This document shows, one piece after another, positions 43,221 to 47,336 of a stretch of DNA of 64,000 nt; positions within the stretch are counted from its first letter, which is position 1; each line of letters begins with the position of its first letter. Both the position numbers and the translations under genes were made by a program. The notes below the pieces were generated by a model that worked only from the letters and a program-made list of their open reading frames with translations, did no database searches and was not told where the DNA came from. Source of the stretch: Methylomarinovum tepidoasis (lineage in GTDB: Bacteria > Pseudomonadota > Gammaproteobacteria > Methylococcales > Methylothermaceae); contig NZ_AP024718.1 of assembly GCF_030294985.1 (NCBI RefSeq), positions 2,185,001 to 2,249,000 on the forward strand, given 5' to 3'.

Positions 43221-43252
43221 GAAAGAGGCCGGGGTGTCCCCCGGCCTCTTTC
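43221..43252. terminator. Bidirectional intrinsic terminator
   Basis: Perfect 14-bp stem GAAAGAGGCCGGGG / CCCCGGCCTCTTTC with a TGTC loop, flanked by A- and T-rich ends of the stem (CTTTCGTTTCG on the plus side). It sits between the converging cbpM and chemoreceptor genes, so it can serve both. Confidence 0.85.
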
Positions 43253-43272
43253 GTTTCGGATCGTTCCGTGTC

Positions 43273-45012
43273 TCAGGTACGGAACTGGTTGGCTGTCTGA
43301 TCGAGCTTTTCGGCGTTTTCCCGCAGGGAAGCGACCGCCTGGCGGGTTTCCTCCATCCGGGCGCAGGTTTCCTCCACACCTTCGCTGATGCTGGCGACGT
43401 TCTGGCTGACCTCGGCACTCACCATGCTTTGCTCCTCGACGGCACTGGCGATCTGGGTGTTCATCTCCCGCACGTCGTTCATCATTCGGGTGATGCTTTC
43501 CAGCACGGTGTTGACGCCGTGGGCTTCCTCCTTGCTGGCCTGGGCTTGCTCCTTGCTCTGATCGATGACGCCCACCGCCTGACGGGCGCGGTTGCGCAGG
43601 CGTTCGATGGTATTCTGGATCTCGGCGGTGGATTCCTGGGTCCTGCTCGCGAGGGTACGGACCTCCTCGGCCACCACCGCAAAACCCCGACCCTGCTCCC
43701 CGGCCCGGGCCGCCTCGATGGCGGCGTTCAGCGCCAGCAGGTTGGTCTGATCGGCGATGTCGCCGATGATCTTCAGCACCTCGCCGATGCTGTCGCTGTC
43801 CTTCTCCAGCTCCTTGAGCACCTGGGCCGCCTTGTCCACCTCGACGGCCAGCCGGTCGATCTTCTCGATCGCCGCCTGCACCACCTGCCGACCGGCCTGG
43901 GTTTCCTGGTCGGTCGCCTGCGCGTTTTCCGCCGCCTTGGCGGTGGTTTCGGCGATCTCCTGGATCGCGGCCGACATTTGTTCCATCATCGTCACCAGGT
44001 GCTGGATCGCCTCACCCTGGCAGGTTGCCCGCTGCCCAGTATCGACCGCCGCCTCATTCAAGCGCTCGGTTTCTTTAGCCAGGTGATGGGCCGCGTCCTG
44101 CACCGTCAACGCCATATTGCGCAGTTTTTTGACAAACTGATTGAAGCTGTGGGCGATCCAGGCGAACTCGTTCTTGCCCCTGACTTCCAGGCGGGCGGTG
44201 AGATCGCCGCTGCCGCTGGCGATGTCCTGAAGTTTCATCCCCAATTGGGTGAGGGGATCGACGACCATGCGCCTGGCGGTGAAGAACAGGCCACCACCCA
44301 CCAGCAGTGCCGCCAGCCCGATCAGGCCACTTGCCTTCCAGACATGGGCGGAGATGGCGGCATCGGCGGTATCGAGCGGAGTAATGATTTCGAAAGCGCC
44401 GTGCAGATCACCGACCTTCTTACCCTCCATGGGATAACCCAGGATGTCCCTGCCGTCGTCACGCCCCCACAGTGCCAAGGAATTACGCGGATCTCCGTGA
44501 CAGACCAGACATTGCTGCTGCAGCCGCACCGGGCGGAAATAATGCAAAGTATTAGTTTTCTCGTCCACGACCCGATAATCCTGGGCTTCCGGGTGCTGCT
44601 TGAAATAGGCCAGTGCTTCGGCCTCCAGGGCGTCAGGTTCGTTGGCGGGATTGCGGGGGTTGTGGCGCGGGGTCCGCAGGCGGTAGCCGTTGGCGCCGGC
44701 ATTTTTCCGAATCATCTCCCAGGCGTTGACGATGGGCACGGTGGCGAGAATTTTCTGTTTGGCCTCATCCTGGGGTAGCGCCGTAAACTGGTGTAGCATC
44801 TCCGGGCTGAAAATCCCCATGTCCCACTTTCTGGCCACTTGATCCCGAGCCGCTTCCGCCGCCTGGATCACGTTCTGGGCCATACGCACCTCCGCCTCGA
44901 TGGCGGTGTTGCGCTGCTGTCTGGCATAGATCCATAAGAGCGCCACCGATACCATGAAAATCAGCCCCAAAACCACAAGCACCAGGCGCATGCCGACGGA
45001 ATTCCAGTTCAT
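43273..45012 (-). CDS. Methyl-accepting chemotaxis protein with a periplasmic haem c motif (DUF3365-like sensor)
   Basis: 579 residues. TM1 about 8-30 and TM2 about 225-246 flank a periplasmic DUF3365/Tll0287-like domain with a c-type haem site C168LVC171H172 in [15 protein letters not shown] (about 247-300) and a full signalling domain follow, with the hairpin tip [20 protein letters not shown]. No CheR/CheB-docking pentapeptide at the C-terminus. Probably senses redox state, oxygen or a haem ligand. The start is the ATG before [10 protein letters not shown], after a basic, non-coding upstream frame. No other chemotaxis genes are in the window. Confidence 0.9.
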
Positions 45013-45137
45013 TCTGTCCACCTCGTTTGGAAGTTCAATTTCGCTATGACAACAAGCATAGTCAAAACTCGGCAGATTGCCGGCCATACCGCTACAATCT
45101 CTCGGCCATCCCACAACGAACTTGAGGAGAACGGAAG

Positions 45138-45632
45138 ATGAGCACCCTGGAACAACTGCGTCACGGCATCCAGCATGCCGTGGCATCCCTGGCCGAAGGC
45201 TGGCAGCAACTGAAGGAGCGCGCCGGCCACGCCCTGACCCGCTTCACCCACCGCCGCCGGGGCGAAGGCCCCGAGCAGCAGCTGATGGCCGACGCTTCCC
45301 GCTGGGGCCTCATCCCTGCGGAGGTGAAGGAAGAGAAGGACAAATTGATCGTGCGGCTGGAAATCCCCGGCATGGAGCCGGATCAGTTCGACATTCAGAT
45401 CGTCGGCGACACCCTGGTGGTACGCGGCGAGAAGCTGGCGGAACGCGAGGAAAGCGGCGGCCACTACTATCTGCTGGAACGCGCCTACGGCGCCTTCGAA
45501 CGCGCCATCCCCCTGCCGGCGCCGGTGGACGAAAACCGCGCCGAGGCCTGCTACCGCAACGGCGTGCTGACCCTGGTGCTCCCGAAGGCCAGCGGCCATC
45601 TCAGCCGCCGAATTCCGATCCAGACTGTGTGA
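45138..45632 (+). CDS. Small heat-shock protein, Hsp20/alpha-crystallin family
   Basis: 164 residues. A helical N-terminal arm (about 1-48), then the alpha-crystallin domain ([47 protein letters not shown]) and a C-terminal RRIPIQ with the I-x-I anchoring motif. ATP-independent holdase. Strong ribosome-binding site GAGGAGAACGGAAG. Divergent from the chemoreceptor; 125 bp between them. Confidence 0.92.
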
Positions 45633-45964: not shown

Positions 45965-46191
45965 ATGCCAACAGCCGCCGCAAAGCCCCGCCTCGACCCC
46001 CTCGACGCCGCGGAAATTCAGCGGCTGCTCGAGCCTTATCTTGAGCGCTTCAAGGCCCGGTTGCTTCTGTTCGGCTCCCGCGCCCGCGGCGATCTCCGTC
46101 CGGCTTCTGACATCGATGTCGCCATCAAGGCGGAAAGATCCATTCCCGCCTGGCTGATGGCCGAGATGCGCGAGCTGCTGGAGGAGTCGCA

Positions 46192-46197
46192 TCTACC
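46192..46197. repeat. Left target-site duplication TCTACC
   Basis: TCTACC directly abuts the TGT left end of the IS and is repeated at 47314-47319 directly after the ACA right end. Six-base duplications are within the range of IS481-family elements. Removing the IS plus one copy restores the host reading frame. Confidence 0.85.
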
Positions 46198-46220
46198 TGT
46201 TGGGTCCCGTGTGATCATAT
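46198..46220 (+). repeat. IS left terminal inverted repeat
   Basis: Begins TGTTGGGTCCCGTGTGATCA; pairs imperfectly with the right end, 17 of 23 positions identical after reverse-complementing. Confidence 0.8.
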
Positions 46221-46328
46221 TCCCAAGAGGAGCTATCCTTTGTTCCGTGCTTGGGATGTTCTGAGCGAGCTGATGGCAGAGTCCCAGGCCGGAAAGACGA
46301 CTCAAGCTTGATGGACGAGGAGGAAGTC

Positions 46329-47336
46329 ATGGTCATCCGTCTCCACAAGAAAGCCCGCACCACGCCCGAGATCCGCCGGGAGATCCAGAACTCCAAGCTG
46401 CCGGCCACGGTTCTGGCCAGGAAATACGGGGTTCATCGTCATACCATCCGCAAGTGGCGCCAGCGCGATTCGGTCGAGGACGCCTCGCACCGGCCCCATC
46501 GCATCCATGCCACCCTGACCCCGCAGCAGGAAGCGATCGTCGTCTGTCTGCGCGAAACCCTGCTGTTGCCCCTGGATGACCTGCTGGCGGTCGTTCATCG
46601 CTTCATCTATCCCGAGATGTCCCGCTCGGCTCTGGACCGGCTGCTGCGCCGCCATGGGGTTTCCAACCTCAAAGAACTGATCGCCGCCAAGGAAGGAGAG
46701 AACGCCCCTTCCAAGGGCAAGAAGAAGGGCTTCAAGGACTACGAGCCCGGGTTTGTCCACATCGACATCAAGTACCTGCCTAAGATGCCCGACGAGAGCC
46801 GGGGCCGTTACCTCTTCGTCGCCATCGATCGGGCCACCCGCTGGGTCTACCTGGAAATCCATCCCACCAAGGAAGCCAGGGTCGCCGCCGCCTTCCTCGA
46901 GCGCCTGATCGCCAAGGCCCCCTTCACAATCACCAAGGTCCTGACCGATAACGGCAAAGAGTTTACCGACCGCTTCTGTGCCACCGGGGAGCGCGAACCG
47001 ACCGGCCGACACCTTTTCGACCAGGTCTGCCAATGCCATGGCATCGAGCACCGCCTCATCCCGCCCAAACACCCCCAGACCAACGGCATGGTAGAACGCT
47101 TCAACGGTCGGATCGCCGAAATCCTCAAAACCACTCGCTTCCAAAGCAGCCAGGATCTGGATCGGGCCCTGATGCAGTATGCCAGCGTCTACAACCATCA
47201 GATCCCCCAGAAGGCCCTGGGACACATCTCACCAGTACAGGCCCTCAAAGACTGGCAGAAGAAGCGGCCGGAGCTCTTCAAAAAACGTGTATATAATCTC
47301 ACGGGGCTTGACATCTACCCTTTAAGGTCGATCTGA
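46329..47336 (+). CDS. IS481-family transposase (DDE, rve integrase core)
   Basis: 335 residues to the stop. N-terminal helix-turn-helix (LPATVLARKYGVHRHTIRKW) and a retroviral-integrase-like core with the DDE triad: Asp in HIDIKYLPKM, Asp in LTDNGKEFTD and Glu in HPQTNGMVERFNGRI. The chosen ATG has GGAGG five bases upstream; an ATG at 46311 is in frame. The frame leaves the IS at residue 328 or so (VYNLTGLD) and ends eight codons later in the host gene (TGA 47334-47336), so the stop codon is supplied by the target. Confidence 0.92.
   Translation: MVIRLHKKARTTPEIRREIQNSKLPATVLARKYGVHRHTIRKWRQRDSVEDASHRPHRIHATLTPQQEAIVVCLRETLLLPLDDLLAVVHRFIYPEMSRSALDRLLRRHGVSNLKELIAAKEGENAPSKGKKKGFKDYEPGFVHIDIKYLPKMPDESRGRYLFVAIDRATRWVYLEIHPTKEARVAAAFLERLIAKAPFTITKVLTDNGKEFTDRFCATGEREPTGRHLFDQVCQCHGIEHRLIPPKHPQTNGMVERFNGRIAEILKTTRFQSSQDLDRALMQYASVYNHQIPQKALGHISPVQALKDWQKKRPELFKKRVYNLTGLDIYPLRSI
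47291..47313 (+). repeat. IS right terminal inverted repeat
   Basis: Ends AATCTCACGGGGCTTGACA. It also encodes the last residues NLTGLD of the transposase, as is usual when the coding sequence runs into the IS end. Confidence 0.8.
47314..47319. repeat. Right target-site duplication TCTACC
   Basis: Second copy of the six bases found at 46192-46197. Confidence 0.85.

Follow-up and report, generated by a model that had tools for sequence, protein, structure and literature searches.

The Tll0287-like domain family (DUF3365; PF11845) has been renamed sCache_heme in a 2026 preprint (Deshpande et al.; PMC12889525), which reports the haem c attachment motif CXXCH for 99% of one member set and 99.4% of another, divides the members into stand-alone and signalling-linked proteins and describes the characterization of one of each. 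As given there, the stand-alone protein of Pseudomonas putida exhibits Cys/His ligation, shifted spectra upon the C59A exchange and a fast loss of NO, and redox roles are assigned to stand-alone members, whereas the signalling-linked protein of Pseudomonas azotoformans is without an axial cysteine and releases NO with a koff of 6.25e-4 per s. A stable O2 complex is reported there for neither of the two proteins, and both gave superoxide. Related arrangements are described for Geobacter sulfurreducens, where haem c and the binding of NO and CO were reported for GSU0582 and GSU0935 (3b47, 3b42). According to PMC8396549, these two are proposed to act as redox sensors, their axial Met detaching on oxidation at midpoint potentials of −156 and −251 mV, and for DcrA of Desulfovibrio vulgaris, a haem-c MCP, sensing of oxygen or of the redox potential is reported.

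Here we analysed a chemoreceptor gene of Methylomarinovum tepidoasis IN45, located within a 64-kb window (the whole stretch of DNA under study), in a host genome of 2,442,387 bases on two contigs, one of which (C1) comprises 2,421,873 bases; the published description lists a chromosome of 2,421,873 and a plasmid of 20,514 bases (PMC10950024). The features of the gene and its flanks are collected in Table 1. The sensor domain scored 105.3 bits against a curated Pfam cut-off of 24.1 for PF11845 and is bracketed, together with CLVCH, by two hydropathy-derived membrane segments. The first-pass annotation had placed CLVCH in a DUF3365/Tll0287-like domain between two membrane helices, and the exact open reading frame, the PF11845 match and the hydropathy profile agree on this point. 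Its reading of the haem c as covalently bound and periplasmic is backed by homology and by the cytochrome-c assembly genes of the host (three family matches), and appears probable. The receptor continues into a HAMP and an MCP signalling domain, and CheA and CheW are present in the same genome. Of the 13 Pfam models that it matched at E 1 or better, none is a PAS or globin sensor of the Aer or HemAT type, and no NCBIfam model reached its cut-off for the receptor. The chemoreceptor architecture with its haem site is almost certainly as described here.

Table 1 Features of the receptor gene and its flanks, in window positions
Feature	Position	Strand	Basis
Complete chemoreceptor gene, 579 aa + stop	43273..45012	-	translation; Pfam
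First membrane segment, residues ~8-28	44929..44991	-	Kyte-Doolittle
Tll0287-like (sCache_heme) periplasmic sensor domain, residues 36-212	44377..44907	-	PF11845, E 5e-30
Pro93, column of the third invariant Cys of stand-alone relatives	44734..44736	-	alignment rows
CLVCH, haem c attachment motif, residues 168-172	44497..44511	-	sequence; 131/131 rows
Met195 in the post-CXXCH segment; candidate distal ligand	44428..44430	-	alignment rows
Second membrane segment, residues ~226-247	44272..44337	-	Kyte-Doolittle
HAMP domain, residues 247-298	44119..44274	-	PF00672, E 5.5e-11
MCP signalling domain (MCPsignal), residues 379-543	43384..43878	-	PF00015, E 4e-42
Intergenic region shared with hsp20; likely promoter-bearing	45013..45137	.	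sequence; arrangement recurs in relatives
hsp20, divergent neighbour	45138-45632	+	Hsp20 match
G+C-rich inverted repeat in the cbpM/receptor gap; probable two-way terminator	43221..43253	.	by eye, unscored

The receptor is a well-formed further member of the described sCache_heme kind, in a host in which we found no study of this sensor; likewise, none of the listed titles and abstract openings from the open-licence literature dealt with the receptor itself. With the signalling-linked 'Cluster 2' proteins it shares the domain, CXXCH, the membrane topology, HAMP and the lack of an axial Cys. The output differs, as the window protein carries an MCP domain whereas the tested P. azotoformans protein is described there as two helices plus HAMP. 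Moreover, the MCP subclass to which the window protein belongs has a post-CXXCH segment with the almost invariant Met195, a feature that is possibly absent from the Pseudomonas protein examined in the preprint.

The receptor gene lies by itself, with cbpM as its convergent and hsp20 as its divergent neighbour. Of eight distinct loci of Methylothermaceae that carry a window-type receptor, chosen and merged for duplicates by hand, six have hsp20 (not in L016/L041 and L019) and six have cbpM (not in L014/L040 and L042), with short contigs accounting for some of the misses. These conserved surroundings say that the locus is old and are silent on receptor function. The receptors at L084, L087, L095 and L112, loci labelled as Proteobacteria, Deltaproteobacteria or Desulfobulbaceae, also have hsp20-like pairs at a distance of a few kb. 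For the window gene, an upstream sigma-28-like box was rejected, its best version having 3/12 mismatches and being equalled by 21 of 200 shuffles; at L035 and L029 such boxes with 2/12 mismatches lie ~125-135 bases upstream of the receptor, a level reached by 3/200 shuffles of the upstream stretch of the window gene. Elsewhere in the window (45965-47336), a short nucleotidyltransferase-like ORF, recognized by eye, runs into an integrase-core (transposase-type) gene.

The statement of the first-pass annotation that no other che genes are nearby is correct as a fact: the 64-kb window contained none of the other MCP or CheW-domain matches of the genome, and no che gene occurred among the ten neighbours scanned, one of which matched the MotA/TolQ/ExbB family. 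As evidence for the role of the receptor it does not hold, because a cluster encoding a receiver protein, CheZ, CheA, CheB, a MotB-like protein and CheW lies ~575 kb away, so that the missing che neighbours say little on the receptor. A CheW-receiver (CheV-like) protein is encoded elsewhere in the host genome. Genome-wide, four proteins showed MCP signalling matches, two of them carrying the haem domain.

The sole clear solved relative of the sensor was Tll0287 (5b82), with an E-value of 1.5e-8 by sequence and 8e-11 by profile. The AlphaFold2 model of the sensor, calculated from 54 sequences, yielded a mean pLDDT of 94 and had 5b82 as its top fold match (Foldseek, E 6.9e-8). VIA-align of the predicted sensor with 5b82 resulted in a Z of 14.1 and an rmsd of 3.2 for 151 aligned residues, the next row reaching a Z of 8.2, and many of the weaker rows were sensor domains of chemoreceptors and kinases. 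As modelled, the sensor has the Tll0287/Cache fold. Tll0287 shares with the window protein this fold and the haem c site, but is a stand-alone protein with Cys/His ligation, whereas the window protein has no Cys there. GSU0582 and GSU0935 resemble it as periplasmic haem-c sensors on an MCP, although their domains were unmatched by the profile of the window subclass (A1) up to E 10 and 3b42 was a weak fold match (Foldseek, E 0.027). DcrA, by its published description, resembles the window protein in being a haem-c MCP.

We compared 131 sensor cores, comprising the window protein and its paralogue (L002), 29 loci found by a profile search across the order, 20 places chosen by hand from the order-wide PF11845 list and mainly consisting of short frames (L119-L138), and 80 loci from named genomes (L039-L118). 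The latter are the best 80 of 166 relatives obtained by an alignment scan; a single-sequence scan of the named genomes yielded zero relatives. A duplicate of the window (L001) and loci not belonging to PF11845 (L003-L009) were left out. The rows were classified as MCP-type (88, window included), stand-alone (16), GGDEF (3) and other (24), where the last class is without the MCP motif and comprises cut frames, other outputs or divergent tips. The cut fragments L042 and L134 were excluded from the stand-alone class, which includes the near-identical pairs L131/L132 and L015/L036. Exactly one CXXCH was observed per best-scoring frame, in one column in 131/131 rows, a count affected by two selection biases, as the scan behind the 80 named loci used two patterns, one containing CXXCH, and the cores were trimmed around CXXCH before alignment; the other 50 loci derived from profile searches or were chosen from one. 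Since the motif sits at the haem position of the family, in single copy and in one column throughout, it is not a chance occurrence. Together with its surroundings it ranks among the most conserved parts of the sensor domain.

Besides the haem pair, the stand-alone rows contain one invariant Cys (16/16). The corresponding column is occupied by Pro in 88/88 MCP-type and 3/3 GGDEF rows, and by Pro in 23 and Ser in 1 of the 24 other rows, and outside CLVCH the window sensor is free of cysteine. In the comparison of the stand-alone profile with 5b82, the Cys of 5b82 aligns near, not exactly on, this column; counted from a conserved Gly it faces Pro93 or Ile94, and the window protein has no Cys at either. 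The Pro at the Cys column and the lack of cysteines beyond CLVCH thus put the window protein in the group with an expected open or weakly ligated distal site. The MCP type has a post-CXXCH segment that neither the stand-alone nor the GGDEF rows share, and its segment around Trp63 is lacking in the stand-alone rows. Met195 is Met in 88/88 MCP-type rows and F, F and L in three long-frame rows of the class 'other'.

We read the gene as encoding an MCP-fused sCache_heme chemoreceptor with NO as the most likely signal, a reading that, with the mechanism proposed below, we hold to be somewhat better than evenly balanced; for NO being the main signal, taken by itself, the balance is even or slightly favourable. 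In the periplasm, Cys168 and Cys171 would receive one haem c from the cytochrome-c assembly system, His172 being the putative proximal ligand. With no distal Cys, the sixth iron site would be open or weakly held, and in the ferrous haem it would most likely bind NO, possibly CO. Ligand binding may then shift the Cache domain and the membrane helices, a change that would be passed to the HAMP and MCP domains, on to the CheA kinase and from there to the flagellar motor. NirK and the hydroxylamine enzyme of this partly denitrifying methanotroph are expected to release NO on the outer side of the membrane. Through the receptor, NO or nitrite stress would then guide the swimming cells when oxygen is low, in a direction that is presumed. 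We infer NO as the natural signal and favour it over O2, because the signalling-linked protein of the preprint holds NO tightly and neither of the two proteins is described as forming a stable O2 complex. Among the open-licence papers listed, none was seen to describe a methanotroph of this kind responding to NO.

A redox sensor, in which the reduced iron would be bound by a Met such as Met195 and the oxidised iron would be open, so that the cell would follow the redox potential, is by analogy conceivable and in our estimate somewhat improbable. We keep it mainly because of the conservation of Met195 throughout the MCP type, since a Met ligand in the post-CXXCH segment would favour redox sensing, as in GSU0582 and GSU0935 with their detaching axial Met. 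The occurrence of F or L at position 195 in three long-frame relatives speaks against it, as do the poor match of the Geobacter domains to the window subclass and the assignment of redox roles, in the preprint, to the stand-alone members. A more specific proposition, with the Met195 loop as a sixth ligand displaceable by NO, a distinct MCP-type sCache_heme subclass and NO taxis in a denitrifying methanotroph, is unlikely in this combination.

For the preferred reading of an NO receptor, the nitrogen-oxide chemistry of the host is of interest. IN45 is described as an aerobic methanotroph that swims with one polar flagellum and produces N2O during growth with nitrate, and its gene list includes narGHJI, nirK, norBC and hao, corresponding to partial denitrification (PMC10950024). 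Family matches in the host comprised two for AMO/pmoA and three for flagellin. NirK reached 318.6 bits against a curated cut-off of 296.3, an HAO-type cytochrome is present, and a NorB-type oxidase adjoins a NorC-like cytochrome. The names NorB and NorC derive from a COX1 match, the cytochrome-c neighbour, reading by eye and the published norBC annotation of IN45, and both proteins were without a match in NCBIfam. Enzymes of the NirK, HAO and NorB types work outside the cytoplasm; if this holds here, NO is expected to be both made and removed there. In a relative within the Methylothermaceae, enzymes of this kind are suggested to serve in the removal of ammonia-oxidation by-products (PMC4688376).

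Several further observations were made in the host genome. Two close flagellin-family matches (L153, L154; C1 ~1.488-1.491 Mb) have unusually long frames of 732 and 751 codons. The second haem-c chemoreceptor (L142:11803-13542, plus strand; C1 ~217.8-219.5 kb) lies ~4.2 kb from nirK, between the AtpA and AtpG genes and on the opposite strand to them, within an ATPase operon that we take to be of the N-type. The order AtpA-receptor-AtpG is repeated in L044 and L048; at L046, where the contig begins just upstream, it was not observed. An AtpD-like gene, recognized by eye, directly follows norB (L149:36-1403 and L149:1396-2841, both on the minus strand; C1 ~2.017-2.019 Mb), and ATPase genes are found near nitrogen-oxide genes at two places of the host genome.

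The profile search revealed a PF11845 match in 91/201 genomes of the order, including 9/10 genomes of the genus group. A recognisable MCP motif was present in 65 of the best 80 of 166 named relatives, whose titles span Methylothermaceae and Methylomonas as well as deltaproteobacteria, planctomycetes and acidobacteria. The MCP-type haem receptor is common. Among the matches listed for the 201 genomes, NorB occurred in 43/55 genomes with an MCP-like PF11845 protein vs 54/146 others (p 2e-7), an association that fades by genus (11/13 vs 22/35, p 0.18), and NirK showed no association (13/55 vs 36/146, p 1.0). The 55 MCP-like genomes were called by frame length (~580-680 codons, two exceptions being known from the loci) and score, from the matches listed and not genome by genome, and the G007 match, at 39% identity, did not enter the NorB count. 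In the sister genomes G018 and G026, which retain the receptor (L032 and L016, respectively), neither NirK nor NorB was matched at E 1e-60; the G018 orthologue is 87% identical to the window protein in the sensor. In print, M. caldicuralii is described as lacking denitrification genes (PMC10950024). G022 was without a NorB match at the same threshold, and G005 contains NirK and NorB and has no PF11845 match. These findings count against a simple NO reading: by the pattern of the sister genomes and the NorB and NirK statistics, the receptor is independent of the cell's own denitrification. External NO and NO formed by hydroxylamine oxidation therefore have to be considered, as does redox sensing, in favour of which G018 and G026 speak.

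An oxygen receptor for aerotaxis, with haem c binding O2 directly, appears very unlikely: in its favour, the host is an aerobic methanotroph and oxygen or redox sensing is reported for DcrA, but the lack of a stable O2 complex in both tested sCache_heme proteins argues against it. The redox or gas taxis suggested in the first-pass annotation stands in its general form, a gas or redox role being supported, whereas oxygen is its weaker part and NO (or redox) the likelier signal. An ordinary small-molecule Cache receptor with a structural or vestigial haem is highly doubtful: in its favour, many ligand-binding Cache-type sensor domains occur among the weaker fold matches, but the conservation of the haem motif and its surroundings stands against it.

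As the sCache_heme family has already been published, the present receptor offers a test case rather than a novel type of sensor. If the NO reading is true, a vent methane oxidiser would devote two of its four chemoreceptors to haem-c sensing of NO or redox state, and its swimming would be tied to partial denitrification and the release of N2O.
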